DNA of 64,000 nucleotides. Source: Isoetes taiwanensis. Its lineage: Eukaryota > Streptophyta > Lycopodiopsida > Isoetales > Isoetaceae. The stretch spans positions 124,001 through 188,000 of the forward strand of contig JAJEKV010000138.1 in NCBI GenBank assembly GCA_021234155.1, given 5' to 3'. Position 1 is the first letter of the stretch. Every line of letters begins with the position of its first letter. A program made the position numbers and the translations under genes. Positions 7,975-44,789 of the stretch are shown in pieces. Below the pieces are notes generated by a model, which was given only the letters and a program-made list of their open reading frames with translations, was not told the origin of the DNA and did not search any database.

Positions 7975-8000
7975 GGGTGAAAGCATGTTGTAGTGGAACA
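7974..8000 (+). repeat. Left terminal inverted repeat
   Basis: These 27 bp are the perfect reverse complement of 30010-30036. They define the left end of the large DNA transposon. Confidence 0.92.
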
Positions 8001-8249
8001 CCCTGGGTGTCCCCCCTGTCCCCCCTAAAAATGTGGTGGGAGATATCAAATTTGTGGTGCGATTTTAAATGTTTATTTGGCGCCTAGTGCATGTACTGCC
8101 CGGATTCAATCATTTCTTGAACTGCAATAACCCAATTCCTACGCCACCCGTCCCATTCCAATTTCCTACGCCACCCGTCCCATTCCAATCTCCACCGAAC
8201 CGATTTCTAAACCCACGACCCACCCGCGCCTTTCCTGAAGCACACGGCT

Positions 8250-9867
8250 ATGGCGCTTAATCCGGTTGTGGATCAATCCGGTTCATACCTTCAATCATTT
8301 AATTTGGAAGCAAATCGCCTAAAATCTCAAACCGGAACACGGGTAAGAGAAAGAGAACTCTCGAACAAGAACGGGATCATAAAAGGCGCCAAAGGAAAAG
8401 ACAAAGGGAAGCTAAAGAAGAATTAGCAAAAAATTGCATCGCAAGAGAGGGAGGATCCACTTAAGCGGCCTCTACTAGGCGCCGGATGGTATTAAAATTG
8501 TTATCTTCATTTCATAGCACCACTAAAGGCTTGTCTAACGGCCCGATAAGAAAGAGGTTTTACTAGATTATCTGCGAGGATGACACAATGGACCGGCGTA
8601 CTTGGCTAAGAAGATTTGAAAGATTTGCAAGCCAAGAGCATTGTGGTCAGCAACCTCGGGGGCTTCCATTCAACTTGTGAAGAAGTCTAACAAAGAATGA
8701 CAGTTTAGCAGCCAAGAGTAGTTGCCTTGCTATGGCCGTAAGAGGAAGCATTAATACCTAAAAGTGCTAATCCTGTCGGTGCTTTCGGGGTTTTGGTAAA
8801 CTTCTTTGGGTGTTCATCCTAGGAATCTTACCAAAGCAAAATTGAAGAGGGAAGATATAGATTGCAAAGGGGGAAATGGGTTTTGTACAAAAGAGTTAGA
8901 AGAGCAGATGCAATTCCCAATTTCTGTCATAGAACTTGTGCAAAAGCAATTTTGGACGAAAAAACAAGAGGGTCTCTCCAAATGCAAAGGATGTTAAGTT
9001 CGAGAAGATTGGAGCGAAATGTAAGAGAGGATCATGCCACTCACTATCCGGAAGAATCACAAGGTTATTTCATTTCTTCATCTTCACCACATTTTTTATT
9101 GTTAATGTGGTATGTGGTATGTGGTTAGTGATTGCTTGTGATATGTGGTTGCTGTGGTGAGGCACGTGGTGTGAAATAAATGATGTCAATATATGCTTTG
9201 TGGTGCCTAGTGTGGTGAATAAAATGGTGTAAAATACATCTTTGTAATATATGCTATGTGGTGCCTAGTGTGGTGAATAACATGGTGTAAAATAAATCTT
9301 TGTAATATATGCTATGTGGTCCCTAGTGTGGTGAATAACATGGTGTGGTGCCTAGTGTGGTGTCTAGTGTGGTGCCTAGTGTGGTGCCTAGTGTGGTGAA
9401 AAATATGGTGTAAAATGAATTCTATGTGGTGCCTAGTGTGGTGAATAAAGAGGTGTAAGATGAATGTCTGTAATATATGCTATGTGGTGCCTAGTGTGGT
9501 GAAAAATATGGTGTACAATAAATTATGTAATATATGCGTTGTGGTGCCTAGTGTGGTGAATAAGGAGGTGTAAGATGAATGTCTGTAATATATGCTATGT
9601 GGTGCCTAGTGTGGTGGAAAATGTAGTATGCAATCAATATGCTGATCACCTTGTTATCTTCCTTGCAGTTGCAATTGTTCAGGAAATTCAAGACGGAACA
9701 TCCTAGTGTTATGATCAAACAGAGGATGTTTGAAAAGCTGAAACCATGGTTTGTTGTAAAATTAAAGGACTTCAATAGTTGCTGCTGTATATACCATGTT
9801 AGAATGCAGATGCTAATAGATGGCTTCAATAGTATGAGAACTAAGCACCCGAAAAGCTGCAGCTGCA
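8250..9867 (+). CDS. DDE transposase-like gene, 5' half (split by gypsy insertion)
   Basis: The putative start at 8250 opens MALNPVVDQSG. A basic, coiled region follows (RRQRKRQREAKEEL, about 8383-8425). Around 8810-9057 an exon encodes an LGVHPRN segment, then SVIELVQKQFW and, after a one-base shift, VSPNAKDVKFEKIG-like sequence. This matches the N-terminal half of a transposase-like family that I recall from animal genomes. An intron with a TGTGGTG tandem array ends at TTCCTTGCAG (9668). The next exon, 9669-9867, encodes KTEHPSVMIKQRMFEKLKPW and a CCCIYHVRMQML cysteine/histidine motif. It stops at the LTR boundary. The gene resumes at 20941. The exact 5' exons are uncertain. Confidence 0.65.
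9081..9640. repeat. TGTGGTG tandem array, about 58 bp unit, inside the transposase intron
   Basis: Roughly seven degenerate units contain TATGTGGTGCCTAGTGTGGT, GAATAACATGGTGTAAAATA and TTTGTAATATATGC. Within it the CTAGTGTGGTGC subunit is itself amplified several times near 9345-9400. The motif is shared with other arrays in this transposon. Confidence 0.9.
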
Positions 9868-10458
9868 TGTTTGGGGTCTGGGTTCGGGAACTCCTGGAAG
9901 ACAACCCTCTGTGAGGACCCGTGGATCTAACAGGAGAGTCCGGGGGACTATGTCACGCGGGATTTGCAAGAAGAGAAGAAGAAGAAGAAAACAGAACAAA
10001 TGAGAGAAAGATGATAAGCTTCCTTGATATCAATGATGAAAATACATGAGCTCTCACAATAGAGAGAAAACTGAAAGGAGACAAGACTCAAAACTCATCT
10101 AAAAACTCATGTGCTAACTCTACTCATATATATAGTACAATGGCCTTGGGCCCAATATAGACACTCGACCGATCTACAGGTGCCGACTCACGGAAGGAGG
10201 CCCTGATTTGCGGTGAATGTTGGCGGTGCCTCTTGAAGTGCCTAGAATCCTGACGCCGACGCGAGGCGGTGGACGGGCATCACTTGTCCGAAGCGGCGCC
10301 CTTGTTGACGACCCACGTGCTTTGACTGCGTGGTCTCTGGCCGCTTGGTCTTCATGGAGCCTTTGATGACCTGACCCGCGGGCGATCGAGGATCCTTGAG
10401 CTTGACCTGGTCTGTCGTGGTGCATGAATAGTCCCGCATCAGAGGCACAGGACTAACA
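9868..10458 (-). repeat. 3' LTR of the gypsy element
   Basis: On the plus strand it starts TGTTTGGGGTC and ends GGACTAACA. It pairs with 20357-20940. The half from 9910 to about 10170 is nearly identical to the other LTR. The GC-rich half, about 10175-10440, differs by many small indels. A TATATATA box on the minus strand lies near 10127. Confidence 0.93.
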
Positions 10459-10472
10459 CTCCCCCCCACCAA
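10459..10472 (-). promoter_or_regulatory. Polypurine tract next to the 3' LTR
   Basis: On the minus strand GGTGGGGGGGAG directly precedes the LTR start TGTTAGTCC, the expected place for the plus-strand primer of an LTR retrotransposon. Confidence 0.8.
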
Positions 10473-10933
10473 ACGACACTCAGAGTGAAGAAAAGGAGGA
10501 AGTGTTTCTGAGGGCGGGAAGCCATCTGTCTGAAAGTGATCCTCACGGGAGTGAGGACGGGCACCATTATGGTAATCGGCTTATGAGATCCCCGGGCGTG
10601 TTTGAAGAGCAGGAGGAGTGTTTTGGGCAAAGGGCGGGATCCGCATCAATAAGAAAGCGCAGAGCCGCACCATGTCTTCAAGGGCGCGTGGGCATGCCCA
10701 AGAAATGTAACCGACATTCCATGAGGAGACAGGTCTGAAGGCCAAAGGCACTGACACTGGCATTCGGATTGCAGTGAAAAATGGGACGCTGCCGATTTAA
10801 GGAGCTTAGCAAAATGCATTTGAGAGCAGCGCAAAATCCCCTTTGAAGATGGACAAGGATCGTGAGGTGGAGGCATTCTGCAAGAATGTGTCAAGACCAT
10901 GAAGCGCATCCGCCGCCTTTGCCAACCACGCCA

Positions 10934-13429
10934 TTAGCAATGTAGATCCAATTGGTGGTGGTGTCCGAGTGGCACCTTCTTCCCAATGTGAGCGGCGAAC
11001 AAAACGTGGATCCCACCGGAGATCCGCCGAGATCCGAGGTGGTGTCCATCCCGCATGACCATCCATGACCTTGGTCCAAAAGGAAGGCGCCAATCAGAAG
11101 TCAGGGAACCCGGGGCGTGGAGGTACACCCTGTGGAAGCATAGGGAGAAGGAACCCGTGGGCGTGGGTTGCTTTGGCGGTCCCCCGAATTGACCGACAAG
11201 ATCCGGATCAAGAGCCCGACACCAACGATCCCAAAGAGAAGCGTAGAGTCGAGAGTTGACCGGAGGGCTATCCCATCCCGTGGGGACCGCCTTGCTATCC
11301 AACGAGCTTGTGGCGATTGTAACCGGGCGAGGTGTCAGATATAAATTTGTGCATAGGGAAGATCTGGGATGCCCGAGATACTTCGGATTTGTTCTGGCCC
11401 GCTTCCGCTTGCCGAGAGACAAATGATTGGCAAGCTCGGGCATGTACCCTCGATGAAGAGTTTGGGTCCGGAAAGGATCCGCAAGATATGGATTGTTATC
11501 CCGAGCACCCATTGCACAGTGGGGTCACCCGAAAAAGTCGGGCGTGGCCCATTTCCAAAGTGTTCCCGTGTATCACCCGGATAGAAATCATGAAAGATGT
11601 AAGCCATGGGCTGAACCACTGAAGGTGATAAAGTCCGGATCGGCACGTTGTATGAGATCAAAGACCACAAGGGCACAAAGACAACCCCTTTGTCTTCAAT
11701 GGAGAGTTCGCCAAACCAAGAAAAAAATCGCAGACCGCCGGGGAATATCCACAGTCCATCTCGCCGCATGCCCGCCGAAAGGAAGAGGTGGCGTCGAGCA
11801 ACCACATAATCGTGATAGCAGGAAGGAACTGGGAAGTCAACAGCATTCGTTAAGAATGGCGGTATGGGCGCCAAGTTTTGCACGAGCCTCATCGGCCAGA
11901 TCGAATAGCTTTGCTGCATTTGTTGTTCAAGATCTCGGATCCGGTTGTCCCTTTCAAGCAAAGAAGCGGATCGGGTCACGGACCCGTTTACGAAGTGTTG
12001 ACCGGGAGGAGGATTTCGAGTATTGAGACGGGAACGCGGCAATCTCGCGTCATCCAAGATCTTCGCGTTTACGCACCTCGTAGCCGATCTTGAAGAGAGG
12101 TGAGCCGAGAGGTCTGCGGTCGAAAAGCTGAGCCGTCAAGGAGGCAACTTGAGCGCCCCGCGCTGAAAGGTTTTGAACTTGAGTGCTGAAATTTTCCACG
12201 CGGGGAGTACAAGGCATTGAGCTTAGCAATATCTGGCGCCCTTGGTACTTTCGGGAGAGCGGCTTTGGACTTGTTGTGCTCCAATAAAGTCTGAATTTGA
12301 CTGGAGCCGAGCCTCTGATCCGCGAAGTTGGCTGACTTGAGCTTGTGCACTTTTGAGATCTGCATGAGCCCGTAAGAGAGCTTCATGCTTGTCTTGAAGT
12401 TTGGCCTCCAAAGTTGCAACTTGGGCGATTGCGCCTTGGAAGGTCCCGTGTACCGCATCGAGGCCTCTAGTGCGTTGAACCCCGCTCATAAGAGCCGCCT
12501 TGGGATTCTTGTAACTTGAGAGTAGCAGCTTGAGCATCTTGTCGATAATCGATACAACAACCGCCGAGGGTGTTGTGGTGGTGGAGCCGGGCCGTTGCCC
12601 GGGTTTGGGATGTTTGGGAAAAATGGTGTGAAGTGGATGGTGTAGCGGAGGAGGAGACAGTGACATGGGTGTGCTGACTGTGGACATGACCAGGGGAAGA
12701 CGGGCGTGAAGTGCCAGCTTGGTGAGTTATTGGAAGGGAGCGCTGAGTGGAATTATGAGAATTTGGTGGTGTGGGAGGGAAGTAATGACGGATGAGGGCT
12801 TGAAAGTGGCCTCCCACAGAAACTTCAGAAATGGAAGTGGTACCCCTAAGGCGGTCCATTTCTTGGAGAAGACGATAGAACATCATTTGGGGCCAATCTA
12901 TGTGGTGTTTGGAGTGTGTAGCAGTGAGGACCAGGTTATAGAAAGGCTTATTGATATGGGTGTTCTTGATAGAATACCCAAGGAACTTGCGCCACAGAAA
13001 TTTAACAAAGGTTTCGTGAGGCTTGTCGATATTGGTCAGACGATGGACATTGGCATGATAAGCAGGTGCACCAAACTCTGTGACATCGAGATCCTGTATA
13101 GCAGACCATGATACACAAGGGGTGTGCAAGGGAATATGAAATACCTCAGAAATCAAATGTTGAGTCAACGAAATGGTGGTGCCATCGACCACAGTGGTGT
13201 AGCCTTGCGGGCTGTTAACGATATTGGCGATGAACTGCTTCAACTGGTCAGGATTTGGAGCCGGAAGTTCCATTTGAGAGAATTCGTAAAGCTGGTGTCG
13301 TTCAGCGACTTCTTTATTTGGGCCAACAAGGGCTTCACGGAAAGTGGGCGTCAAGAAGGATACAGATGCAAAAAGGGCCGGATCCTTGGGAGCAGTAGCT
13401 TGAAGTGTAGAAAATCTTGGGGCAGCCAT
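10934..13429 (-). CDS. Extra long ORF between integrase and 3' LTR of the gypsy element
   Basis: The likely start is the ATG at 13429-13427 (MAAPRFSTLQ). An open frame follows to about 12467, with a globular part (TISLTQHLISEVFHIPLHTP, WRKFLGYSIKNTHINKPFYN) reminiscent of the plant retroelement ORFs often labelled putative plant transposon protein. A Ser/His/Thr-rich stretch comes next, then a coiled-coil-like segment (VATLEAKLQDKHEALLRAHA, about 12430-12370). Further pieces in shifted frames at 12057-11335 and 11512-10934 contain LWDRWCRALDPD and GELSIEDKGVVFVPLW. Together they suggest a protein of about 830 residues interrupted by frameshifts. I see no clear transmembrane segments or signal peptide, so envelope-like function is not supported. 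The position resembles the 3' ORF of Athila elements. Confidence 0.55.
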
Positions 13430-13729
13430 GGTAACGATGTGCAGAAACGAAGAGTGATTCCAAAGGCGGAAGACGAAAGTCGAGCACGGAGGACAAAGGC
13501 GCAGAGGAACGAAAAGGTTTGTTTTAGGGCTTAACAACCGAGGCTTAAGAGGTATGAAGAGTGCGAAACTGGAACCGTTGATGGTGCCAGGTGTCAAAAG
13601 ATGCCAAGAAGGGTATTGAGAGGCAAAAATTTGGCTAAGTCCCAAAAAACGTAAGGGAGAAGCAATGAACGGTGAGGATGAGACGTGAAAGAAGGATCGG
13701 ATGTGACAGGTGGCAAAGGACACACATTA

Positions 13730-14372
13730 ATGTTCGACGGGCGTGAAAAGAAGGAATGGCATTCAATGCTGGCAACTCAAAGTGGGATATCATTAAAAGG
13801 AATGTGTCAGAAGGTACCATGGCTAGATATGCGGCGGGAGAAAAGATTCTCATTTTAGAAAAACAAACCTTGCATTGCAAACACGTTGGCGATTTATTGT
13901 GATTGGTCCACGTCGACAAGGAGTTCCGCAGTTGGCTATATAAGACGAACCGAGAGTAACAAAGGCATCCGATGGCGCTCAGTATGGCTGCTGCTGGCTT
14001 GAACGAAGACTGCACGATGCCCACTAACTGTCAGGAGTGGATCACTTGCAAGATGAATTGTGCGGATCTCGGGCCGCCACAACCGTGGCATTCGAATGGA
14101 CTACCGGTGTGCGGGATGGCTGAACATCCCGACCAAGACCAAGCGGGATGGAGGTGGTTCGCACCTTATTTGGGATCCGAGCAGAACCTCTACCATCTCC
14201 TCTCGCATCACCCTCGCCTCCGAACCCGAGTAGAGGGTTTTTCCTCGTAGGACTTAGTAGATAGGGCTCTGAGCCCGTTTTTGTATATAGGGCAGTGCCC
14301 ATAGCGGAAATAGCTGGGCTGCGCCCACATTTTGTAAAACAAATCTCCACTATAATATAATATACCGCCTTT
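13730..14372 (-). other. Spacer between integrase and extra ORF with promoter-like signals
   Basis: There is no sustained coding frame on the minus strand here. CTTATATAGCC (about 13946-13936) followed by GACCAATCAC suggests a TATA-type promoter, or a remnant LTR, upstream of the extra ORF. Confidence 0.35.
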
Positions 14373-15640
14373 CTAGTCACTTTCTGTGGTGTTTGCTTCT
14401 TGAACATGCTCTGTGTGTTGATGTTCACTTTCTGTGTGATGAAATGCTTTGAGACGAAAACCATTAACCAATGTAGGTAATGGAGTGCCATCTAACTCAG
14501 CCAGTTGGAAAACACTTGGTCTAACCACTTGAACAATTTGATAAGGGCCAAGCCAACGAAACTTGAGTTTACCCGGAAAATTTTTGTGCCTGGAATCATA
14601 AAGAAGAACCAAATCGCCTTCTTTGAATGTTTTTGTCTTCAGACGTTTGTCATGTAAAGATTTTTGCAACTGTTGTCCATGAAGAACACGAATATAAGCA
14701 TCCCGTCGGGTTCATCCAACTGTTCTAATTGATAGACCCTTTCTTTGAGTGCAAAGCAGGTGGATTATGAGCAAGAGCAGTTGAAAAAGCGAGTGTTGGA
14801 AGGATGTATTCAAACGGCATGAGAGCTTCGACCATAAACCAATTTAAAAGGAGTGTGACCAGTAGCAATCTTGAAACAAGTATTGTAGGCCCAAAGAACA
14901 ATTGGGAAGTTTTATCCGCTAACTGTGCGGGAAGCATCACAAATTTTCTTGAGAATGGTGACCGCGTTTTGTTGGTGCTTTACGCCAAACCATTACCTTG
15001 AGGATAGTAAGGTGTGCTCTTGTGATGATGTATGAGGAGATAATCCATCGGCTCCTTGATAGTATGATTGATGAAATGAACACCACGGTCAGCGACCAGC
15101 TCAGGTGGGGCAGCCAATCGCGTGATAATTTGTTGATAGAGGACTCTAGCCGTGTTTTGCGGCGGTGTTGTGCGGAAGTGCACAAGCTTCCGCCCATTTG
15201 GTGGCGTGGTCGGTGAGAGAACCGGAATGTATCGCACGAGTGTGTCGCGCAGAGGATCTATAGGTCCCACAAAGTCCATTCCCCATTTCTTGAAGGGAAG
15301 TGGCGTGGCGGCCGGCGGCCAATGGAAGAGCGCCACGGGTCGGGGGCGTCCCCCCCGGCCGGCAAGCGCCACACGCGGCGGGCGGGCGTGAGCATCTTTG
15401 AAGAGCGTGGGCCAATAATACCCCCGCGAAGGATTTTTTGCGGCCGTGGTGTCACCATGAAAATGACCACCACCGAGCCCTTGATGAGCTTCTCGAACAA
15501 TATCCGGAACTTCATGAGGTAGAACACGTCGGAAGGATGGTGTCCTTACCCTTTTGGTAGAGATGTCCCGCAACCATGGTGTAGTCCACGGACCTCGGCG
15601 GAGAAATTGATGGCGGCGGGATTGTCGCCATGGCGAGAGA
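14373..15640 (-). CDS. Integrase of the gypsy element (frameshifted)
   Basis: Read on the minus strand, the catalytic core includes MDFVGPIDPL, then DHATKWAEA, then PELVADRGVHFINHTIKEPM with the second Asp, and PYYPQGNGLA before the expected Glu region. The final open piece, 14669-14373, ends the polyprotein with FKEGDLVLLYDSRHKNFPGK and a FRWLGPYQIVQVV segment, typical of plant gypsy integrase tails. No chromodomain follows. At least two one-base shifts separate the pieces. The upstream HHCC zinc region is expected near 15500-15400 (ARPPRVALAGRG area) but is scrambled by shifts. Confidence 0.85.
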
Positions 15641-15769
15641 GGCGTCGCCGTCTTACGGTGGAAGAGCACCGTAAGGAGATACTGCTGAAAATCATGGAAC
15701 CAATGTGGTGTTGCCGTGACTAAAAAGAGCTGAGCATCAGGAAAGGCGCCCGAGACTCCGGTTGAGGGA

Positions 15770-16432
15770 TCATCCGTGGTGGATGCGTGAAAGATAATCC
15801 GGAACAACATGAGATTTGCCGGCCTTATGAACAATTTCAAAAGAAGCAAATTCTTGGAGAAGAAGGACCCAACGAGCAATGCGGCCCGTGGGCGTGGACT
15901 TGTTGATTAAATATAGGAGTGCTTGGTGGTCCACAAAGAACTTGATTTGACTGCCTAAAAGGTAATGACGGAAGCGTTGGACACGTAAAATGAGACCCAA
16001 AGCTTCACGCCCGTGGCGAGAATAGTTGCGCGCCGCCAGAATTGAGTTTTCGGCTGGCGTAGCGATTTGGTTTGTCAGTGTGCGCATCATATGCTTGAGA
16101 AAGAACAGCTCCAATAGCAAACGCCGAGACATCGACATGAACGTGAAAGGGCTTGTCCCATTGAGGAGGAACAAGAACCGGTGCTCGAGTAAGCAAAAGC
16201 TTCCAACTTTTGAAAGCGGAATTTCCGCTGGGAATTCCAAGCCAGGTGGATTCACACCCGTAAGTTTATGAATGGGATCTGCAATGGCGGCCCGGTCCCG
16301 TATGAAGGTGGAGTAATAATTGACCTTACCGGTGAAAGAGCGTGTCTCCTTGATATTGGCTGGTGCTTGAGCCTTGAGCACCTGGCCCGATTTTGGCGGG
16401 GATCGATGGTGATACTGCTTGGTCGACAACAT
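15770..16432 (-). CDS. RNase H domain of the gypsy element
   Basis: The frame encodes KETRSFTGKVNYYSTFIRD, the connection region after RT. In a second frame (16196-16005) PPQWDKPFHVHVDVSAFAIG contains the first RNase H Asp (DVSAFAIGAVLSQ). The main frame then gives FRHYLLGSQIKFFVDHQALL with a later catalytic Asp, and VPDYLSRI, the usual end of plant gypsy RNase H. A one-base shift lies between the two frames near 16200. Confidence 0.88.
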   Translation of the reverse strand: MLSTKQYHHRSPPKSGQVLKAQAPANIKETRSFTGKVNYYSTFIRDRAAIADPIHKLTGVNPPGLEFPAEIPLSKVGSFCLLEHRFLFLLNGTSPFTFMSMSRRLLLELFFLKHMMRTLTNQIATPAENSILAARNYSRHGREALGLILRVQRFRHYLLGSQIKFFVDHQALLYLINKSTPTGRIARWVLLLQEFASFEIVHKAGKSHVVPDYLSRIHHG

Positions 16433-16435
16433 GGC

Positions 16436-17095
16436 CTAATGAACACCGGAGGAGGCCTTAAAGGTGCATTTCTGCGGATTGAGACTAATGCGGGACTCAT
16501 CACATTTTCGGAAGACGAGTTCCAATTTATCCAAGTGGTCAGCCATGGAACTCAGAGGGCGAGAAGTCATCTTGAAAAATTTGCAAGAAGGATTTTCCTT
16601 CATGAAATCATGAAAACCGAGAGCATGATGCGTTGAAACGTTGATGGAGAGTTGGATAATCCAAAAGGAACCACCTTGTAGGCAAAAGTGCTTACCGGGT
16701 GGTGAAAGTGGTCTTGAGTTGATCAGATTCTTTGATTGAGATCTGATTGTAGCCGAAAAACCATCCATAAAGGAGTACATCTCATGTCCGGCCACTTCTT
16801 CCGTAACCTGGTCCGTGAAGGAAGTGGAAAATGATCACGCCCGCAGGGTCGATTGAGTTTCCGATAGTCCACACATGGCACTGACGCGGATCTTACCATT
16901 GTGCTTAAGGGCAATGACGATGGGGCTCACCCATTGAGAATGTTTGACCTCATAGATCAAACTGCGGCAAACGCTGAAGGAGTTTGTCAATTTCGCCTTG
17001 ACGCTTTGGCGATCCGCGGTAATTAGGGTTGAGCACATCTTGTCGTTGCTACAGTGGGTCGTGCATCGATTTGGTAGGAATGGTGAGTTCCCCAA
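16436..17095 (-). CDS. Reverse transcriptase of the gypsy element (frameshifted)
   Basis: Pieces in several minus-strand frames read in RT order. SQWVSPIVIALKHNGKIRV is the start of the fingers. CVDYRKLNRPCGRDHFPLP and YSFMDGFSA carry the first catalytic Asp. IFQDDFS, at about 16585-16565, is in the position of the YxDD motif. SRISLNPQKCTFKAS is the thumb entry. About four single-base shifts interrupt it. Function in the sequenced copy depends on whether those shifts are real. Confidence 0.88.
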
Positions 17096-17622
17096 GCTTT
17101 TGTTGATTCCCGAAGATTTTTTGTAACTCGATTTGGAAAATGTGTTTGAATTTTTTGAGCGGCTTGACGGCCATTACGATAAGGAGCCGGAAGATTTCAA
17201 GAATGCGACAGGTTGATTGTTGCCGGCGTCCACAATCTCGACTTACGAGTCCGAATATGGGGTATTACTTGAGTATCCTGGACAATGTGTGCGGGAGGTT
17301 GGAGCATAACCGGATCGTGGCACTGCGTGGTGTAAAGAGAGGTTGCTCGGTTTCATCCAAAGAGAGGTTGCTTCATGACGTGTACATCAACGAAGGAGTT
17401 GCGAGGAGGTGTAGCATCCGAAAAGTGATCAAGCGTTGGATTGATTGCAAGGAGCCGGTAGGGGTCAAGCACCATTACACCGGGTCCGATCAAGAGTCAT
17501 TTCTCCCCAAGGATCAAAGATATTGGGGTAGGATGATGAGGCGCACTCTGGGTGGAGCCTGAACTTGATAAATATTCTCGAGCTTCTTGTAATCGCTAAT
17601 TCCGAGAGAGGGTTCCGCATTG

Positions 17623-18497
17623 TCAACAGAAATGATCCCGCTTTGTTTGCAAGTCCATGGTGGCATTGAGATGACCATCATTGATGACTAACCGGTCCGT
17701 GGCCCCAAGAATGGATACTCTTTGCCCGGCGGAGAAAAGGTCGCCGACCAGCATTTCATAGTCACCGGATCTTCGCCCGACTTTCCAAACTCCAAATTCC
17801 ATGGGGAAGCGGAGATCACCAATGTTGATGTGAAGAATAGGTGTGACGCCTTGAGGTCGCGTGATATGGCCATTAGCCAATTTGATGTCATATGGGGCAA
17901 CGAAAGAGTTGTGTGATGCCCATTTGTTTGGCGGAGTTTATCCGTGATGAGATTGATCGCGCTACCTCCATCTATTTGAACATGGTTGACTTGTCGATTG
18001 CCCACCGTGGCATGGACCGTGGGTGTAGAGGTAGCCACAGCCCCAACTAAAGCAGCTTGGGAGTGGTAATCGGTCCTTGAGAGCGGTGACAGAAGTTTTA
18101 AAATGGTTGCCAAGCTTAAAGGAATTTTGATCTTGGCGAGCTCCTCTTGGAGTTCGAGAGGCACATGAGAAAAAGGATCTGCCTGGTTCCATCGGTGGGA
18201 GGCGTGGCGGGGGAAGCAAAGAACTTTTTGAGTAAGTCAACCTCGGCGGCAATATTGGGATATGTCCGAGGCGTGGAGGTTGAGATGTTGAAGGGGTATC
18301 TTGTCTTTGTTGAGCTCTAGTGGTGGCATGAACATTTGCCAATGTGCTGCCTTGCAGCTTTGCATGAGGTTCAAAATGCTTTGGCGTACTTTGGGCATGA
18401 CATGTGGCATGAGCTTTTCCAAGTCAGGTGCAAAGTGAACCTTTTTTTCGTCCTCATGAGGAATGGTGTCAACCGCAAAGGCAAAGCTGCGTGCCAT
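17623..18497 (-). CDS. Aspartic protease region of the gypsy element
   Basis: VNHVQIDGGSAINLITDKL (about 18000-17945) is a retropepsin active site of the DGGSA type found in Athila/Tat-like plant elements. In the next frame MANGHITRPQGVTPILHINI and EMLVGDLFSAGQRV, with VSILGATDRLVI, complete the fold. A frameshift near 17880 separates the two. The upstream region to 18497 is a linker with little recognisable structure. Confidence 0.8.
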
Positions 18498-18499
18498 TA

Positions 18500-20150
18500 G
18501 GAATAATGGTCAAGGGACGTGATGCCTTGGTGCGGCGTGAAACTAAACCAACCCAATTTGACTACTGGATCGGAGGATTAAGTGCCCGAAAAATTTCCTC
18601 TTGGGCTTGTTGATCCGGTGCGGGTTGATTTGCCGGAGCTGGTTGATAGCGTGATTCTTTGGGGCTCTTGGTGGCTTCTTAAGAACCCGTCGGGCCTTGT
18701 TTGCCATTAGCAAGCCGAGTTGGTAAGCCGTGAGGCGGACCGATGTGGTCTGATTTGTGCCGTGAAGTCGTGCACGAACTTGTGGAAGTTGAGGACACGC
18801 CGTGGTGGTATGACCCCATTCTGATGGTGATAACACCGAGCTTTAGAAGGATCAAAAGGAGGACGTTGGTTGGATCCCCGTGGTTGCTCCCGCGGTCGAT
18901 AGAGTTGCGCGGGCTGCACCGGGAAGTGGTGGTCAGCGATAGTGCGATTGTAGCCGAGGTGTGGTTTGCACTTGATAAACCATTTTGTTGCGGAGCGGTG
19001 TGGGATGAGTGCGAGTGCACTCTTCCGTGGCATGATTGCACATGTTGCATCGCTTTGCAATGAGGCGGGCCATTGGTGGAGTTGCACTCATTGGCCAAAT
19101 GGCCTTGGTATTTGCAAATATGGCACCAGATTTGACTCAAGGGGCGTGGATTAGCGTGTTGAGGCTGAACAACCGTTTGTGGAACCATGACAGTGGAATG
19201 AGCGGGGAGCTCTTGAAGAGCCACGGGAGGAAACATTGCCGGAGTGATTGACAAGGTCGATAGCCTTTGCTCCAAAGTCTTTGGACTTGGTATTCATCAT
19301 GAGTCGAATAGCGGGAGGAAGTCCTTGGAGAAACCGGACCAAAATGCCTCGCGGTGGGGTACTCCTTGAGCTTACTTAGCGAATCGTGAAGTCGATCCGC
19401 GAAAAATCCGGGCACTCAGCGGGCTCTTGTTGAAGTTCATTGAGTTGCTTGAGATGAAGTTGATCATCATCCGTGGTCCCGTGAATGAGACGTAAAAGCA
19501 ATCGCATTTCGGACCGATCTTGTTTCCAATGGCTTTTGTTGGACATGAGCCATTGATGAGGAGAAACCGCAGTGGTGGTGGAAAAGATGTGGAATTTCAG
19601 TTGAGGTTGCGCATGACCATTTAGGACAGCTAGAGCCTCAAATTCTTCCATGTGGGCCCGAGCACTTTGGTCTAACGGTTTGCCTTCGTGTTGCCAAAGG
19701 TGGGATAAGTCGATTCAGAGTCCGAAAGGTAGATGAAAGTGTCTTGGGCATGCAGAAAAAGATATAGTGAGGATATGTAGGTTGAGTTGGATGTGGCATG
19801 GTGCCCGAAGGACCACGATGAAGGGGTGATCGCGGTTGAGAAACCGAAGAGCTGGAGCATTGGTTTTGAGATCCGTAAGGTTGTAAAGGAGGAAGAGCAA
19901 AGGGGGAAACGTAGGGAAAGGATATTCCGGGTAGGCATAAAGGAGACATGTGGATAGCCGTGCCCACCGGGGAGATGATGGTTGTGAAGGAAGAGGCGAT
20001 GGCACGAAGAGTGATGGATGTAGGCATGTTTAGGGTGTGAAAGTACCGGTTGAGAAGGTTGAGCCCCGATAAGGCCCCGGATAGTGATGAGGGGACTGAG
20101 GTTGTGAGCAATGTTTGCACGCTTTGGGGGGACTGGGACCAGACCGACAC
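18500..20150 (-). CDS. Gag of the gypsy element with CCHC zinc knuckle
   Basis: The minus-strand frames contain SEMRLLLRLIHGTTDDDQLH, LNELQQEPAECPDFSRIDF and VRFLQGLPPAIRLMM, the usual order of a plant retrotransposon gag domain. CHICKYQGHLANEC (about 19125-19084) is an intact CX2CX4HX4C knuckle. The N-terminal part near 20150-19650 is Ser/Pro-rich and in poorer condition. Several one-base shifts occur. Confidence 0.75.
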
Positions 20151-20356
20151 GAGGGGTGGGTGGCGCTGGACCGAGCCCTAGACCTAAGATGGCCTCCCTC
20201 TATGTCATAAACAGATCCATACATGTCGCCAACAGTTTCGACGCCGATGGCGCTCCTGCCGAGAGGCCGTCGAGAAAGGAGTTCTTCCCGCGTGAAATTA
20301 CGGATGATTATGGCGTAAGAAAGTAGGATAGAATCGCACCGGCAATGCCGGCATGT

Positions 20357-20940
20357 TGTTTGGGGTCGGGTTCGGGAACTCCTGGAAGACAGCCCTCGTG
20401 GAGGACCCGTGGATCTAACAGGAGAGTCCGGGGGACTATGTCACGCGGGATTTGCAAGAAGAGAAGAAGAAGAAGAAAACAGAACAAATGAGAGAAAGAT
20501 GATAAGCTTCCTTGATATCAATGATGAAAATACATGAGCTCTCACAATAGAGAGAAAAACCGAAAGGAGACAAGACTCAAAACTCATCTAAAACTCATGT
20601 GCTAACTCTACTCATATATATAGTACAATGGCCTTGGGCCCAATATAGACACTCGACCGATTCTGCGGCCGACTCTCGGAAGGAGGCCCGATTTGCAGGA
20701 ATGTTGGCGGTGCCTCTTGAAGTGCCTAGAATCACTGACGACGACGCGGTGGACGGGCCGCCACTTGTCCGGCGGGCGCTCTTGTTGACCGGGCCACGGG
20801 CTTTGATCTGCGTGGTCGGCCGCTTGGTCTTCTCATGAGCCTTTGATGACGGCAACCCGCGGTCGATCGAGGATCCTTTGAGCTTGACCTCGGTCTGTCG
20901 TGTGCATGAATAGTCCCTGCATCAGAGGCTGGGACTAACA
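20357..20940 (-). repeat. 5' LTR of the gypsy element
   Basis: It is the partner of 9868-10458, with the same TGTTTGGGGTC...GGACTAACA ends on the plus strand. Transcription of the element would start here and run towards lower coordinates. Confidence 0.93.
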
Positions 20941-22631
20941 TCGCACTTGTCGCCTTTTGTGTGGACATATATATGGTGAATGCAGAGGCGCCCGAATACA
21001 AAAATAAGTAGCACAAGAAGTCCGTGGGTGGAATTTTATGTGAGAAAACTAGCTTCCAACCTTACCATAAGAGGGAATGCATTCGGGTGAGTGTAAAGAG
21101 TGTGGGATTAAGAAGTTCCCCCGCCCACATGAACAATCTAGTGATAGTGGCATGGTGAAGTGGGAATACCTAGACTATGAAAAAACGTATTCGTGAGATG
21201 GCAGCAAGAAGTCTAAGCTCGTTCACCAACACAATGAAACCTAAGTCTTCCACGGGTGAACAAAATATTGGAGAAGCTTCCAAATTTTCCTTTACACAAC
21301 TTCGGATATAAGTGGCGTGCGTGCCAAGACAAAGAACTCCTTGATAACTTGCCTTCGAGATGCTTACCTATCCGTGGTTGACTTCAAGCAGAGAATTATA
21401 CTTTTAAGGAGCAGAATGAAGTTCATCCATGCATACGGGTCAACAATCGATAACTATATTTGTTCAAATAACCTATCGTTGATCCACGCATTTACATCAT
21501 TGAGAAGGAAAAACACTACTATATGTGTGGGATGATAGGGAACATGACACACTTTTTGTTCAACATTGTTTTATGAAACATTTTGAGTACTTAAAGCGTA
21601 AAGGCAATGTCCCCAAACAAAGACTATGTATTTTCAGATGGTGCCGCATCACAATTCAAAGCGACGGATCATTTTATTTTGTTGGAAGGTACAGTTGTGA
21701 TAGAGAGGTCAACATGATGTGGAACTTCTTTGGATCAAACCATGGAAAAGGTGAACATGATGGGAAGGCAGCAGAATTGAAAAGATGGATACGAGGTCTA
21801 CAGCTTAAACATCCTGACATTAAACTAGATAATGCCCATGATGTGGTGAAAATTGCAGAGAAACAATTTCAATGTGGTACATCTGAGTGGACTGAAAATG
21901 GAAGAAAAGTTCGGAGATACTTCTGGGAAATAAAACCTGAGGATATCAACAGGAAAAAGGCTTGGGGTGCAGAGACAATTCCAGAAACCAGGCAAATTCA
22001 TTCAGTCCATGGATTCAAAGATGAAATCCAAACACGCCTACATACCCGAAAAGCTATCATGTTTTTTGCAAAGCAATTGTTTGGATGGAAAATGGGACAT
22101 GTGTGAGAACTAATTGTATGTAGATGAATGGGACCTTGTAGTCGTTGAATCATCCTCCAATGTTCATGCGGATGTGGAAGAGACCCGCAAGTCTACCGTG
22201 CCACTATACTCAACCTTGGCAAATGTACTTGCATAAGCACTTAGAGAAGGAGACAGCTTTTGCGATTCTTTGCACCTAAAGGGAACGAGGAGGATTCTCA
22301 GATTTTGGATGTTGCTATGCACCAAGCCAAAATTTGAAGTTGAAAATGACTTCAAGCGTAATCGAAAACTTGTTTATGAGAGGTGAAACCGTTGTGGAGG
22401 GCATTTACTATAGAAAGAAGCCTCGGTCAAAGGTGATGTATGAGTTGTTGACAAACGAGCCAAAGTCACTTGTATTCTCTACTCAAATTTGTGCTATTCG
22501 AGTTCCCATGCAAAGCAGATCAAGAAAGGTGCTCGAATTTTACATGTGCTAGACCAGCAGATGAGGAAAAGATTCTAGAAAACTTGCTCGAGGTTTTATC
22601 TGATGAAGATAGCATGTCTGATGAAGAATAG
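20941..22631 (+). CDS. DDE transposase-like gene, 3' half
   Basis: The gene continues after the gypsy insertion. It reads CEKTSFQPYHKREC, then ECKECGIKKFP (about 21095-21120; one G missing before it). Next is VDF with ENYTFKEQNEVHP in the adjacent frame (21377-21430), giving the first acidic site. Then EHDTLFVQHCFMKHFEYL, then VFSDGAASQFK (21628-21660), the second Asp. WNFFGSNHGKGEHDG follows at 21719-21763. The C-terminal VVEGIYYRKKPRSKVMYELL comes next, and an acidic tail ends at TAG 22629-22631. These motifs in this order match a transposase-like family I recall as widespread and unannotated in animal genomes. At least three one-base shifts are present, and the third catalytic acid is not identified with certainty. 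Confidence 0.72.
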
Positions 22632-23048: not shown

Positions 23049-23835
23049 ATGGCAAAATTAATGACCTCGGGCAACCCAAAAGGCCCGAGATGCCATTCTT
23101 CTTGCTCCCCGGCCGAAGTTTCTGATTTATTACAAGCATTCGAGAGCGCATAATTTGTGGAAATGAGTCCTTGGGAAGGTTCTGATTCTGGTGGGTGGGA
23201 AAGCTTCTGCTTTCTGATTACAGCGGCTACTACTACCGAGACATGGCCAACTTCACCTCTTTGATCTTTTGCAAAAACGATGGAGTGCCGGAATGGGACA
23301 ATGTGACCAGAGAAGAAGAGCCCATAATACCTAGGCGTGCTGTCCCGATTTTCAGCCATGCAGAATGGATGGACATGCTCAGGATACAGAAATTACTCTA
23401 TTCACCGGATGAGAATATGACCACAGAAATGCTGAAAACTCTCACCAGGAGGTTGAATTGTACACCACAGCTCCCAGACCTCTCAACTTACTCTGCCTCC
23501 ACTGAAATTTTTACACACCAGCATCTTTGGCCCGTTCCTCATACTATTGACCAGGATCTACAAAGGTTGAGACCTTTTTTCGCTTAATGGCTACCAAGCC
23601 TTTACGCTAAACAAAGTTCCTCTTTGTTATGATAGGTTGTTTACTGAGGACCAATTCCTTCACTTCGGGGATATGTACTATCATCACAAGGCCTTGCGTG
23701 ATGGACATGGAGAAGTCGCTGCTATTCTCGTTTGGTAACACTCCACCATTATGGTTTTTGCTTTCCCTCCGTATGGGGGAGCAAATAGGCCGGGAAGTGA
23801 CCGGTGGCCACCGACCGGGTGATCATAGAAGATGA
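23049..23835 (+). CDS. Unrecognised transposon gene B, partial or frameshifted
   Basis: A possible start at 23049 (MAKLMTSGNPKG) leads to CSPAEVSDLLQAF, then a shift near 23150. A good frame at about 23195-23587 has a YRDMANFTSLIFCKNDGVPE stretch, MTTEMLKTLTRRLN and IFTHQHLWPVPHTID. After a further shift it reads QAFTLNKVPLCYDRLF and DQFLHFGDMYYHHK up to about 23735. I recognise no family. Its MAK start and PAEV segment weakly recall MAK and PPEVEKLI in gene C. It lies inside the DNA transposon, downstream of the transposase. Confidence 0.4.
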
Positions 23836-24146
23836 CGAGGAGGAGCGGACCCAGATCTCTTTTTGATAGACCCACGTGAATGAAAACAAGTGTATATAAT
23901 CTGAAATGTAACCTTATGTAATCATTTTATATGTTTAATATAAATCTTCACTCTTCAATCTTTTCTTGTTTTAATTGACAAAGGTGAAAGTGACACACGT
24001 AAAAAATTACATTAAGGATGAACGGAATGGGACAGAGAAACACATGATGAAACCCACCACGGAAATCATCACATCAAATGCAAGTTCAATCATTCAAAAG
24101 TCGGGTGCGGCAGAAAGATTGAGGGAAACCCTAAATCTAGTTTTGC

Positions 24147-24795
24147 ATGCGGACATTGGCTTATCCCGATCCAGCTATGGCGGAAGAAAACAGAAGGAGA
24201 ACACGGGCACAAACAATTTCGCCAGTTCAAATGCAGTCGCATCTGGTAAGACCTATACTGGAGCAAATAAACCAGGAACAGAGGCGGATATTAGAGGAGC
24301 GGAGGACCCATGAATTCCGAGGTATTCTAGGCTTAAAACATAGGTTAATTCCCCGATGGGCTTAAAGAATTAGAAGCCAAGGCAAAGTGATAGGCTGGTT
24401 GCCTTTCTTATTACTAATGATGTTGTTTTACACGCATGCGGCCGGGAGACTTAACAGAGCCGGGTGCGGCCGATGTGGTTCCGGGGTGGCGATGATTTCG
24501 AGGATGAGTTCGCAGCTCTCCCCATGCTTGAGGAAGAGGATATGTTCATCGAACTAAAGCAGGAAATGATCCATGCTTCAGCCATTAAAAAGTGCTCAAC
24601 AAAGCCAATTTGCATAGAGACACAACAACCCCGAGACAATACTTTGTGAATCAGATCATAAGTGGGAGCGTAAACAGAAGCTCATGTTTTAGTGTTGCTG
24701 GATTTCACCAACTATTCAGCCAGAAAAACTTGATGAAATCTTGGACATACTTGGAAGAAGAAGAGTTACGATCTCACAATGCAAGATCCGATTGA
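24147..24795 (+). CDS. Unrecognised coding remnant inside the DNA transposon
   Basis: Frames at 24147-24365 (LEQINQEQRRILEERRTHEF), 24464-24649 (DDFEDEFAALPMLEEEDMFI) and 24592-24795 (FHQLFSQKNLMKSWTYLEEE) look protein-like, with acidic and helical composition, but they overlap in different frames. It may be the 3' exons of gene B or a separate gene. No homology is recognised. Confidence 0.3.
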
Positions 24796-24996
24796 GGCCC
24801 AAGAATCAGATGTCATCATTAACCTCTTCAAAACAGCTATTATTATATCTCTATTGCATTTTGATAATACTAGAAGCTCGTGGTTATAGTTTTCCTCGAT
24901 TTTTTCAAGAGATACTTCATTTCATAAGAAGTATGAACTATTCTACCGGTGTGGTAGATTTCCATATGTATTTTTCTCCCTTTGAAATATAAAAAC

Positions 24997-25035
24997 ACAT
25001 TTTTCACCACATTTTTCACCACATTTTTCACCACA
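24997..25035. repeat. TTTTTCACCACA triplicate
   Basis: Three consecutive copies of ATTTTTCACCAC, followed by two weaker ones, match the CACCACA motif spread through the DNA transposon. Confidence 0.8.
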
Positions 25036-25624
25036 GCTTTCACCATAGATTTCACCATAATCAGCCAGGGGCATTGACCATTTTTTGACCCGGTCAGAAA
25101 ATGGAATGGCTCTTAGGATTCCCCGATAGTATCTTGACCGATTTTGGTGACAAAGAATATATGGATCCCAAATTAGGTCCCTGAATTGATATGAGACCAA
25201 AATTCATTGAGCTCTGCTTTGTGCAAAGATTCTTGCAAGGCCACTAACTTTTGCTTCAGGGAATTCTGTGTTTTTCTTTTCAGTTTCTTTTGAACTCTAT
25301 TTCTTTTGAACCCGAGCCACCCATCTCATATTTTCCTATTTGTCGAAAGCTGGTTACCATATTTTGTTAGTGTGCAGATCATAGATTCTCGCGACCTTCA
25401 AATTCCTTTGTTTGCATTTTATAATTAATGACAAAAGTTCAAATTTTAACCGAAAAGAACAAGTGGAAACTCAGAGAACAGTTAAAGCAAAACAAGTTCT
25501 ATTGCAAAACAAGGACTATTGCAAAACAAGTTCTGTCATTAATGAAAAGCCTTTACAAAGAATAGTCACAAGGACTATTGCCAAAAAAATTGAAACCAGG
25601 GATTACAATACAAATCTAAACTAA

Positions 25625-26194
25625 TCAGGCGGGGGCCATCTTGAGCTCTATATGGAGGTCATCCTCGCAGGCATACATCTTCATTTCGAGGAGTCGCTCC
25701 TCGTCATCATAACCTACATGCACCCACTCGAGCACCCGCAACGAAGCGACAGCTTGATGATCCCACGGGGGGTTCACCTTTATCACATGAGCATATGCCA
25801 CCTGCGTGCTTAAAGTGAGAAAAAACACCCCTATATACGTACGCAAAAGTGTTGGAAAAAACCCCTTCCGTGGAAAAAATACACTAGAATGTCAGTAAGA
25901 GGGGGATTTAAACCCCTAGTATACGTACGAAAACGTCGAGAAAAAAACCCCTTCCATGCACTCACTAGGTTTATACGGGTCTTCTGTGTGAATCCCCCAT
26001 GGATGATCCATGATGAGCTTCTCCACCTCTGGTGGAGTGAACTTGGCCACCACTGTAACCGGGCGGCCTCCTCTGGTGGAGGAAGACACGGATCCTCCGC
26101 AGGAAGCCACGGATTCTGACCGTGCTGGCTGCGAAGGAGCAGGCACAATGGCCGGGATAGTGTTCCTGCGGAGTGTAGTCTTGAACTTAGCCAT
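25625..26194 (-). CDS. Gene C of the DNA transposon: two-exon, 140 aa, unknown function
   Basis: Exon 1 is 26194-25949 (82 codons, start MAKFKTTLRR). Exon 2 is 25801-25625 after the acceptor GCACGCAG (58 codons and stop). The phase-0 join reads PSECMEG then VAYAHVIK. Exon 1 has a Ser/Arg-rich stretch and VVAKFTPPEVEKLIMDHPW. Exon 2 is acidic (EWVHVGYDDEERLLEMKMYA). The donor GT and acceptor AG are canonical. No signal peptide, membrane segment or known domain is seen. The intron (25802-25948) contains a near copy of the exon 1 donor region (ACCCCTTCC). Confidence 0.5.
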
Positions 26195-26369
26195 GGCGGA
26201 AGTGAAAGAGATGGACGGAATGGGAAAGGAGTGAAGGAGATGGCGGAATAGACGATGGGGACGGAATGAAGCTGCAGGGCAGAATTTTGGGAATAAAAGG
26301 GATGCAAATCGTAGGCATCCATACGATTTTGGAAATGAGGCAGAAGAGGAAAGGGACGTTTGCATGCAT

Positions 26370-26980
26370 GCCACCTAGGCTCCAACATGCCACAGTAAAG
26401 GGTCAAGCATGCCACATAGACCGAAAGCATGCCACCTAGGCTCCAACATGCCAAGGTGGCTCAAACATGCCACCTAGGCTCCAACATGCCACGTAAGCCC
26501 CAACATGCCACCTATGATTCACCACATGATTCACCACATGATTCACCAAATGCACCACATGATCCACCACATGCACCATTTGCATCACCAAACATGTTGG
26601 TCAATGGAAGTCAAACATGTAACAAAGGTCATGTAAAGGCTCAAGCATGCCAAGGTGGCTCAAATATGCCACCTAGGCTCCAACATGCCAAGGTGGCTCA
26701 AACATGCCACCTAAACATGTTGGTCAATGAAAGTCAAACATGTAACAAAGGTCATGTAAAGGCTCAAGCATGCCAAGGTGGCTCAAATATGCCACCTAGG
26801 CTCAAACATGCCAAGGTGGCTCAAACATGCCACCTAGGCTCCAACATGCCACGTAAGCTCCAGCATGCCACCTATGATTCACCACATGATTCACCACATG
26901 GTTCACCAAACGCACCACATGATTCACCACATGCACCATTTGCATCACCACATCTATCACGACATGTAACACCACATTGT
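26370..26980. repeat. CATGCCACCTAGGCTCCAA / CACCACATG complex tandem repeat
   Basis: Short units (AACATGCCACCTAGGCTCC, AAGGTGGCTCAAACATGCC, GATTCACCACAT) alternate. A longer unit of roughly 120-130 bp, containing TGTTGGTCAATG and GTCAAACATGTAACAAAGG, occurs twice (about 26594-26715 and 26716-26840). Reading frames through it are repeat translations. Confidence 0.9.
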
Positions 26981-27235
26981 CATGAATCTTTGAATACATC
27001 AATTTCTTTCCTCGAGATTTGAACTCCACCGAGTGTTGCTCGGGTCAGCCAGAAAAAAGTCTATTGTATACAATAGTATACAACAATGTACATTAGAGTG
27101 TCAATGAAAGAATAGGTTACAAGAATAACCTCTTTGGTTACAATAATACAAACATGTGATTACAAGTAAAGATCTATTGATCTGTCAACCTCACCCTTCA
27201 TTACTACAAAGAATCGTGCTTCACAACATCAATCA

Positions 27236-29700
27236 TCATTCTCGGCGTGTCCAACATTTCAGAACTAGAAATTGGTACACCCCTGCAACAAACATATCAG
27301 GCCTCACATTGGATGAGTAATACCTTCAAATTCTACTTAACTCACCTTGCATTGGGATAGTATGTCCAAGCCTCAGATTATTGCAGCCACAACATGCTTT
27401 TACAAAGACACATATAGCAAGACACATATATGCTTGAGAATGTCTTGGAGGTGTCTTTTGCTTGGAATTCTGCTCTTGCTTTTTCTCCGAGACACTTCCA
27501 CCTGCAAAAATTTAATGTGATTCGGTAACTATATGGGTCAAATTAAAAAAGAAGACAGCACAAAAGGTTGGAAGTTACCTTGTGACTTACATTCACCAAA
27601 CGATTTGTTCGGGATCATAACCCGATGCATCTGGCCGATTTGGCGTGATTGGTGTGGAGCATGACTTAATGCATCTGGCTGATCGGCGATTGTTGTCCAG
27701 TTGGAGCACCCTATTGGAGCTTGACTTGACTTGGCACTTTAGATACACAAAAAGGGAGAAGCAAAAGAGACTAAGCCAGCCAGGATCTTGTTTTATGTCG
27801 GGGCTTACTCCCTTTTCGAGTTTCCTGCTTGATGTATCTAATTCGCCACCTGAGTGAGCGATGTCATCCTAGGGGGCAAATTAGATGCAACAAACAGAAA
27901 ACGAAGGAGACTAAGCCGCTTACTCTCTTTTCGAAGTTTCGCTTGATGTATCCGTCCCTTACATCAGGCCCTTAGCATGTAAACTAAGCTACCTATAAGT
28001 GCTCACCGTAAGTGCCTCAAGAGCTTGAAGTTGCTTTTGATCCTCCCTACTCACACCTAAGGCTTGTACCCATGTGTAGAGAAAATTCATGACAGCAATT
28101 CTCAATGCAAATGCAGTGATTGCAAATCCTACAAAGAGAACATAAATTTGTCAATGAGAATACAATTATACTAAGCACTTCAGGAATTTTGTTATGAAGT
28201 ACCTCAAGAGGCCGAAAGCGCACTTACCTTAATCAATCACTTTCGATCTTGCCTTTACTTGAATCACTTCGATCTTGTAGAGTTGATCCATTCTCCCGGT
28301 GTCCTGTTGAATTCAACCGAAAGTAATCCAAGGTTAGTACCACATGACACAACAGGCACCACTTTACACACCACAAATTCCATCATGACAAACTTTGCAC
28401 CACAAATGGCGTCATATTCACCACATGTGGTGTGGCATGTGGCACCGTGGTGGCGTCATATTCACCACATGTGGTGTGGTGTGGTGCCACATGACACACC
28501 ACCTATGGCACCACAATGCACCCAAGGCACCACATATGGCAATCCATTGCAAGCACCACAAATGGCGCCAAAGACACCACATGTGGTGCAAAATGTGGAT
28601 CCATAGTGGTGCCACATTAGACACCACATGTGGCACCACAATGCAAAGAAGGCACCACATCCGCAGGGCATCCACCACCCCATATGTGGCGGATAGCGTG
28701 GTGCAATATTTAGCTTTTTAGCTTGGCACCACATATGGCGGATAATCCACCATTCACAAGTATCACCATATCTAACATCACATATGACACTAAGTATAGA
28801 AACATATGGAAGCCAATTCACTATTCAGATAAGGTACCATTGTTTGGTACTATATGTGACATTACATATGCTACAAACTACATTATTAACATATAATTGG
28901 CACCATATGACTGTCCTGTAACACATTTGGAGCTACATACTCCGCGGAACTGAAATTATCCACCACAACTCGAAACTAGCAAAGACAAATTTCCTACACA
29001 TAACTCACAACACACCCAAATGAAGAAGTAAGTGGAAAACCGATTGTTCAAGCTTGCTAGACCTTGCTGGAAAATAACAGTTCCAATATTAAATTGCATC
29101 ATATGGTGGTTCCAGAAGAAGAGGGTTGAAAAGTACCTATTTTTTCAGTGATTTTCCCCGAGATTCTTCTTATAGCTTGAGGAGGCTTGAATTGTGGCCT
29201 AGTCATTTCAAGAGAGGAAGCATCATCTGTGGCAGGTTGCTCTGCTTCCACACTATTTGAAATGCTTGCATGCTTCCTCTTACGTTGGGGACGGAGAGTC
29301 TTTGAGACCCTTTTTCTCTTAATCGTTTAAACTCAACCCGCTTTTATTTCTTTTCCTTTTGTGTGAAGGTAATACGCTTACTTGCCCATAGTCCGTGAGG
29401 CCATGCCTCCCCGTGCACACTTCCTCGCCTGCGGATTTTTGTAAAGGCACATATATTCATTATACCTCTCCTTGCTCGATTCTTCAACCCGCATGATGAA
29501 ACAAAACAATATTATAAACAACAGAGAATCATGGGCATCCCCGAATCTAGAATGCAACCCACCGTAAGTGGATTTTCCTAATACTTTCGGTCCCCCAAAC
29601 GGATTTCGATTTCTTCTTGTGTGGCGTAATGCTTTTCTTGCCTGTACATTTCCTTGTAGGTGTATCCCGTGGCATTCAAGTCCCCAGATGATCGAGCCAT
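27236..29700 (-). CDS. Gene D of the DNA transposon: multi-exon, cysteine-rich C-terminus, unknown function
   Basis: The possible start at 29700 gives MARSSGDLNATGYTYKEMYR. Downstream minus-strand exons are bounded by AG and GT. They are a short one near 29435-29390; one at about 29320-29140 with ATDDASSLEMTRPQFKPP and QAIRRISGKITEKI; 28128-28007 (FAITAFALRIAVMNFLYTWV, then REDQKQLQALEALT); 27501-27346 (SEKKQEQNSKQKTPP, then KACCGCNNLRLGHTIPMQ); and 27283-27236 (VYQFLVLKCWTRRE, stop). The phase at the last join fits. The middle exons are separated by a CACCACATG repeat region. No domain is recognised, and some exons may be missing. Confidence 0.45.
28320..28770. repeat. CACCACATGTGGTG repeat cluster in a gene D intron
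   Basis: Many copies of CACCACATGTGGTG and CACCACA(A/T)ATGGC lie here. ORFs across it on both strands (His/Trp/Met-rich) are repeat translations. Confidence 0.88.
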
Positions 29701-30009
29701 TTCGCGGATCGATCTTCTTGCCGTAAATCGAAATGGTCTTGGCGGATTAAGGGAGCGTGATCGAGTTTTTGAGGGAAAATGAAAATTGAGAATCGAGAAA
29801 TGGTCTTGCGGATTAAGGGAGCGTGATCAGAGTTTTTGAGGGAAAATGATCGTGTACGTTGCTGAATAAGCCTGAATAAGACTGAAAGGACAAAATTTTG
29901 AATAAGTAATCATGTGTATTTTTGAAAAAATAACTCCCTCTCCCACTACAAATTCGGTAGTTCCCACCACACTTAGCACCCAAAAATGTGGTGCTAAAAT
30001 GCACGTTTT

Positions 30010-30036
30010 TGTTCCACTACAACATGCTTTCACCCT
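30010..30036 (-). repeat. Right terminal inverted repeat
   Basis: These 27 bp are the perfect reverse complement of 7974-8000. They close the large DNA transposon. Confidence 0.92.
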
Positions 30037-33184: not shown

Positions 33185-33186
33185 TT

Positions 33187-44740: not shown

Positions 44741-44789
44741 ATCGTGCCTCGGCATGGTATCCGGAATTGCCCCGGCTTTCCATGGCGAA

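Follow-up and report, generated by a model that had tools for sequence, protein, structure and literature searches.

A decayed DNA transposon, probably of the Sola superfamily, with putative accessory genes in the lycophyte Isoetes taiwanensis

The Sola superfamily of DNA transposons was reportedly founded in a 2009 paper by Bao and colleagues. Its elements are described, in a passage of a later review of plant transposons, as encoding a transposase with three catalytic aspartates (DDD), making 4-bp target-site duplications, measuring mostly 2–9 kb with some above 15 kb, and ending in terminal inverted repeats (TIRs) of 11–1124 bp; the same passage places Sola in moss and calls it uncommon in flowering plants (PMC10741241). 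Dictyostelid Sola2 is reported, in an excerpt, with AT-rich 4-bp duplications (AWWT) and a transposase of 888 amino acids (aa) (PMC3627910). Brief mentions in other sources concern 56.7 Mb of DNA/Sola-2 in Cryptomeria (PMC11539532), Sola among the repeat classes of C-fern (PMC6890710) and a Physcomitrella Sola1 named in a review (PMC9033089), and the word Sola is absent from the main text of the Isoetes taiwanensis paper (PMC8566536). Here, we analyzed 64,000 bp of the I. taiwanensis genome (contig JAJEKV010000138.1, positions 124,001 to 188,000; hereafter the window), which holds a DNA transposon at 7975–30035. We consider it likely that this is a decayed cut-and-paste Sola transposon, probably Sola2, whose transposase acted on 26-bp ends with a 4-bp duplication, which carried two accessory genes, B and C, and which was later split by a long terminal repeat (LTR) retrotransposon.

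The element and its family in the host genome

The sequences at 7974–8000 and 30010–30036 are exact reverse complements at 27 of 27 positions, with TTTA outside both ends (7971–7974 and 30036–30039), just as a first-pass annotation of the window had noted. As the outermost A/T is common to the repeat and the target duplication, the element proper is 7975–30035 and its repeats are 26 bp long. Its termini read GGGTG, and an exact 18-mer search of the window placed the terminal repeat at the two ends only. The annotated size of 11 kb fits the uninterrupted element (10,988 bp) and not the actual span of 22,061 bp, because the span includes a nested LTR retrotransposon of 11,073 bp.

7971..7974, no strand: left target-site duplication TTTA, from the window sequence
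7975..30035, no strand: whole DNA transposon, 22,061 bp, or 10,988 bp once the nested LTR retrotransposon is subtracted
7975..8000, plus: left 26-bp TIR, from the window sequence and genome copies
9868..20940, minus: nested LTR retrotransposon, foreign to the transposon, splitting the transposase gene; LTRs at 9868–10458 and 20357–20940
30010..30035, minus: right 26-bp TIR, from the window sequence and genome copies
30036..30039, no strand: right target-site duplication TTTA, from the window sequence

The LTRs of the nested retrotransposon are 90.9% identical, and it yields an RT_RNaseH match as well as an H2C2 integrase match below the Pfam cut-off. The first part of its two LTRs is near-identical, and the GC-rich part carries many short indels, which may be assembly noise.

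The host genome (1,658,258,908 bases in 1,110 contigs) contains the exact 26-mer end at 330 places on the forward strand and 329 on the reverse, against 0 and 0 in a reversed-sequence control, and the terminal repeats are therefore not a product of chance. For the 27-mer with up to three mismatches, the two strands gave 404 and 393 places, and the control none on either. We drew 25 facing pairs, with unconditioned flanks, from about 100 26-mer places listed. An identical 4-bp duplication flanked 23 of these pairs, whereas a 5-bp match was found in 0 of 25 and the cross-pair control gave 0 of 600 at 4 bp. Among the 23 exact duplications, A/T occupied position 2 in 18 and position 3 in 19, and the outer positions could be any base. 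These 26-mer sets were used for the target motif because the 27-mer copy sets had forced A (in perfect pairs also T) at the duplication ends. The spacing of the 25 pairs, among the matches listed, was 9.06–56.7 kb, with many near 10–11 kb; nested inserts, as in the window copy, presumably account for the longer pairs. Duplications of 4 bp were also present in six of the seven copies, window included, of an earlier 27-mer set, and at all 4 left ends paired with a right end in a second one.

The joined flanks of one copy, C33, match nine other places at 2–3 mismatches (control: 0), with GTTG as the 4-bp target at six and GATG or ATTG at three. These places are paralogous empty sites fitting one insertion, as expected of precise insertion. 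By eye, the C33 flanks resemble a Copia polyprotein. A 181-aa catalytic piece of the transposase gave at least 151 matches in the host genome, 150 of 7,733 first-look candidates being scored; among the matches listed, identities fall, by eye, near 95%, 73% and 61%, with 58% as the lowest, and many matches are stop-free, with open frames of up to 674 aa.

Some observations weigh against this picture: two of the 25 facing pairs lack a duplication, as does copy C1033 of the seven-copy set, and a right end lay within 6–16 kb for just 4 of the 10 left ends tried. The copies, 4-bp duplications and empty sites together demonstrate a real, high-copy transposon family, which we read as cut-and-paste. 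The multi-copy TIR transposon proposed in the first-pass annotation was thus recovered by the genome search for the TIR pair and for paralogous empty sites that it had suggested. Its description of the window copy as autonomous did not hold, since the transposase is frameshifted and split by the LTR element and gene C is interrupted; this copy is dead.

The transposase and its superfamily

The transposase gene lies on the plus strand in three blocks.

8250..9050, plus: N-terminal coding block, ending at about 9050, with broken frames; open in copy C952
9654..9866, plus: coding block preceding the LTR insertion, from the window reading frames
20941..22630, plus: frameshifted continuation that holds the catalytic DDD domain, from the window reading frames

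In copy C952, the first block matches Calypogeia P0080 (expectation value, E, 4e-11). The motif series previously read from the window as a split gene is present, in different frames: VVDF at 21371–21385, AENYTFKEQNEV from 21388, DYVFSDGAASQFKA at 21622–21663 and MMWNFFGSNHGKG within 21525–22106. The family conserves a DDD triad (D222, D305 and D346 in the numbering of P0001) and has a predicted RNase-H-like fold; the predicted model matches integrase cores in fold, and the Pfam matches of P0001 include no integrase family. Related proteins occur in plants and animals, with many animal members, and this supports a DDE/D-type transposase of a family that, as annotated, is frequent in animals. 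Seven stretches in virus contigs and 57 in prokaryote genome contigs fit a search pattern, none of them confirmed as relatives. The homologues P0126, P0129, P0132 and P0190 join the transposase to a cysteine protease domain of Ulp1 type (PF02902) or OTU type (PF02338).

We compared the family with Sola as described in the passages cited above. The DDD triad is present with an RNase-H fold, as judged from conservation and the predicted model; the 4-bp duplication is present (23/25 pairs against 0/600 in the control); and the TIR of 26 bp and the size, with pairs from 9.06 kb and many near 10–11 kb, lie within the published ranges. The transposase profile also matches P0087, a protein of Cryptomeria, in which Sola-2 is annotated. 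Because the DDD triad and the 4-bp duplication make up the published definition and Cryptomeria has a relative, we place the element in the Sola superfamily, where it probably belongs by these features and this association, and within it probably in Sola2. The suggestion of an undescribed type or new superfamily is therefore not upheld, at least against these partial accounts of Sola; the type of transposon has very probably been described already.

Two points tell against the assignment. The Sola name rests on defining features and, through Cryptomeria, on association, and the duplications are A/T-rich at the two central positions only (18 and 19 of 23), against the AWWT reported in the excerpt on dictyostelid Sola2. 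Both would also suit a separate, unnamed DDD superfamily that shares with Sola only the 4-bp duplication and the triad, the family having been set beside Sola by description. Consistent with such a superfamily, the transposase pieces searched gave no Pfam family above cut-off, a PDB sequence search with the transposase profile gave no match, and six family peptide motifs were not found in the literature searched. We nevertheless regard it as improbable, given that the published Sola features tested, the target preference aside, are present and that a Sola-2 class is listed for the very conifer in which the family has protein P0087.

Accessory genes, subterminal arrays and the rest of the window

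At least three accessory genes on both strands had been annotated without coordinates; the letters B, C and D denote open reading frames (ORFs) of the window as assigned in the present analysis. B on the plus strand and C on the minus strand stand, whereas coding by D is unsupported.

9130..9638, plus: left subterminal array of tandem repeats with TGTGGTG, spaced 58 bp in part (repeat family D1)
23051..23845, plus: accessory gene B, broken here with 9 stops in the alignment; open at locus L104 (268 aa)
25628..26194, minus: accessory gene C, in pieces 26194–26003 and 25786–25628, the intervening stretch missing from locus L103
26391..26950, no strand: internal direct repeats (families D2 and D9)
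29111..29700, minus: candidate ORF D, DNA conserved near the right end

At L103, gene C has an open frame of 107 aa; the window copy is interrupted after about residue 64. Both genes recur across the host genome. For gene B, 150 of 1,216 candidates were scored, with identities from 100 to 48%; 74 of the 150 rows were stop-free, with open frames of up to 363 aa. For gene C, 150 of 1,053 candidates were scored, with 98 to 63% identity in full-length rows, and 129 of the 150 were stop-free. Many stop-free C rows at 75–86% identity have no B among the matches listed, and gene C may be the more widespread of the two. The layout, counted among the matches listed (for the transposase, 85 of its 151 rows), was constant: all 28 transposase–B pairs within 6 kb shared a strand, with a spacing of 1.4–2.7 kb in 27; all 50 B–C pairs within 9 kb had the two genes on opposite strands, with a spacing of 2.0–2.8 kb in 41 and C upstream in one; and all 14 transposase–C pairs were likewise opposite. 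A single copy is in some cases represented by several fragment rows, so that not all of these pairs are independent. The ratio of nonsynonymous to synonymous substitution rates (dN/dS), given as point ratios without a significance test, was 0.12–0.58 for gene C in six pairs among four sequences, and 0.64 and 0.45 for gene B against C952; dN below dS appeared between the more distant copies. Owing to the recurrence in a fixed layout and these ratios, we take gene C to be a genuine gene evolving under purifying selection, and gene B probably to be one too.

Several results pull the other way. The C952 gene B, which gives the lower ratios, itself carries two stops; dN/dS between B at L104 and at L105 was 0.94; and codon-position tests on copies of the window subfamily were flat. 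As they were flat even for the transposase, the codon test is powerless here. The near-neutral L104/L105 ratio, the copies without codon bias, the stops in half of the B rows scored and the lack of a recognizable domain are what host sequence picked up by the element, or reading frames open by chance, would leave: no Pfam domain scored above cut-off in B or C, a PDB sequence search with B gave no match, and an AlphaFold run on B from a two-sequence alignment gave no usable model (predicted local distance difference test, pLDDT, 31.7). Such an origin of B and C is hard to reconcile with the fixed strands (28/28 and 50/50 among the matches listed), the numbers of stop-free rows (C 129/150, B 74/150) and dN/dS of 0.12–0.58 for C and of 0.45 and 0.64 for B against C952, and we consider it very unlikely. 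Further copies of ORF D lie near the right end; stops are present in most rows listed, and 20 aligned copies showed no third-position excess.

Some of the broken frames may reflect noise in the assembly. The assembly was built from Nanopore reads and polished with racon and pilon, according to a passage of the genome paper (PMC8566536), and long alignments of seven copies opened 0.45 gaps per mismatch, single-base gaps making up 68%. This noise in repeats is also what could be said for inverted repeats that arose by chance or assembly artefact with no transposon at all, an idea already refuted by the hundreds of exact ends, the exact 4-bp duplications and the empty sites.

The motif TGTGGTG/CACCACA occurs 61 times in the LTR-free element, against about one in mononucleotide shuffles, four times in the LTR insert and eight times in the 41,939 bp of window flanks. 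In seven copies read from the left end, the reverse motif was densest in the last two tenths in all seven, and the forward motif in the first two tenths in four; in the other three (C306, C1033 and C1040), the inner array was slightly richer in the forward motif than the subterminal one, which counts against strictly subterminal arrays. We regard the arrays as putative protein-binding sites, likening them to the subterminal motif arrays that serve as binding sites in CACTA elements.

Elsewhere in the window, a tandem repeat at 348–760 with about 59-bp spacing is built on GGCGCCATTT (repeat family D6), and a tandem duplication at 32642–33720 has a spacing of about 540 bp and 96–98% identity (D4, D8 and D13). 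A 91-nt inverted repeat (54651–55060) is 99% complementary, with arms 228 nt apart and related arms at 40589–40832. The minus-strand open frame at 30856–31791 falls just short of the Retrotrans_gag cut-off of 24.1 bits, with 24.0 bits and E 4.5e-5, and may mark a further LTR element next to the transposon. The region 44000–48000 is GC-rich (0.57); the ORF at 46007–46591 resembles a non-LTR reverse transcriptase on inspection by eye, and Pfam gave no match for it at E 0.01. An Rfam scan of the window at gathering thresholds gave no match.

Proposed mechanism and comparison with described systems

We propose that the RNase-H-like DDD transposase would recognize the 26-bp ends, given the observed ends, predicted domain and conserved triad; it would then excise the element and join it to a staggered target, leaving the 4-bp duplication with an A/T-rich center. 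Elements of the family also carry B (about 270 aa) downstream of the transposase on the same strand, and C (about 107 aa) on the opposite strand, usually 2–2.8 kb beyond the start of B. One or both of their products may attach to the subterminal TGTGGTG/CACCACA arrays, helping or regulating transposition. An LTR retrotransposon later split the window copy, which is inactive. More speculatively, and in our view doubtfully, a land-plant Sola-type lineage may have turned multi-gene, its transposition needing B and/or C on dozens of GTGGTG sites in the subterminal arrays, a layout convergent with TnpA/TnpD of CACTA; it might then merit a group of its own beside Sola1–3.

The gene set of B and C and the subterminal arrays have apparently not been described before: no report of accessory genes in plant Sola elements appeared in the titles and abstract openings searched, the founding 2009 paper lying outside that search. 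If our reading is correct, a superfamily said not to be common among flowering plants reaches high copy number in a lycophyte genome, accompanied by two conserved genes of unassigned function and an array resembling a set of binding sites. It would offer a testable case of helper-protein recruitment by large DNA transposons and a probable function for a family of uncharacterized plant, conifer and animal "hypothetical proteins".

Among described systems, Ginger elements are integrase-derived, with a 4-bp duplication and a retroviral-type integrase domain; the Pfam matches of P0001 include no integrase family, but the predicted model does match integrase cores in fold. piggyBac and Kolobok, likewise cut-and-paste DDD/E elements, insert at TTAA, and were rejected since TTAA was found in 0 of the 23 exact duplications; the TTAA of copy C1040 arose by chance in the 27-mer set with forced outer letters. 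CACTA/EnSpm elements encode TnpA and TnpD and have subterminal repeat arrays, 3-bp duplications and CACTA ends. The present element resembles them in being large and in combining a transposase and accessory protein with subterminal repeat arrays, but it has 4-bp duplications and GGGTG termini, and no CACTA transposase family is among the Pfam matches of P0001; CACTA was rejected as well. From Sola and Sola2, as far as the passages on them go, it differs in duplications that are A/T-rich in the center only and in its B, C and subterminal arrays, which those passages do not mention, whereas it shares with them the DDD transposase, the 4-bp duplication, the short TIR and the size range. Shared, too, is a presence in moss and, listed as a repeat class, in a fern and a conifer.

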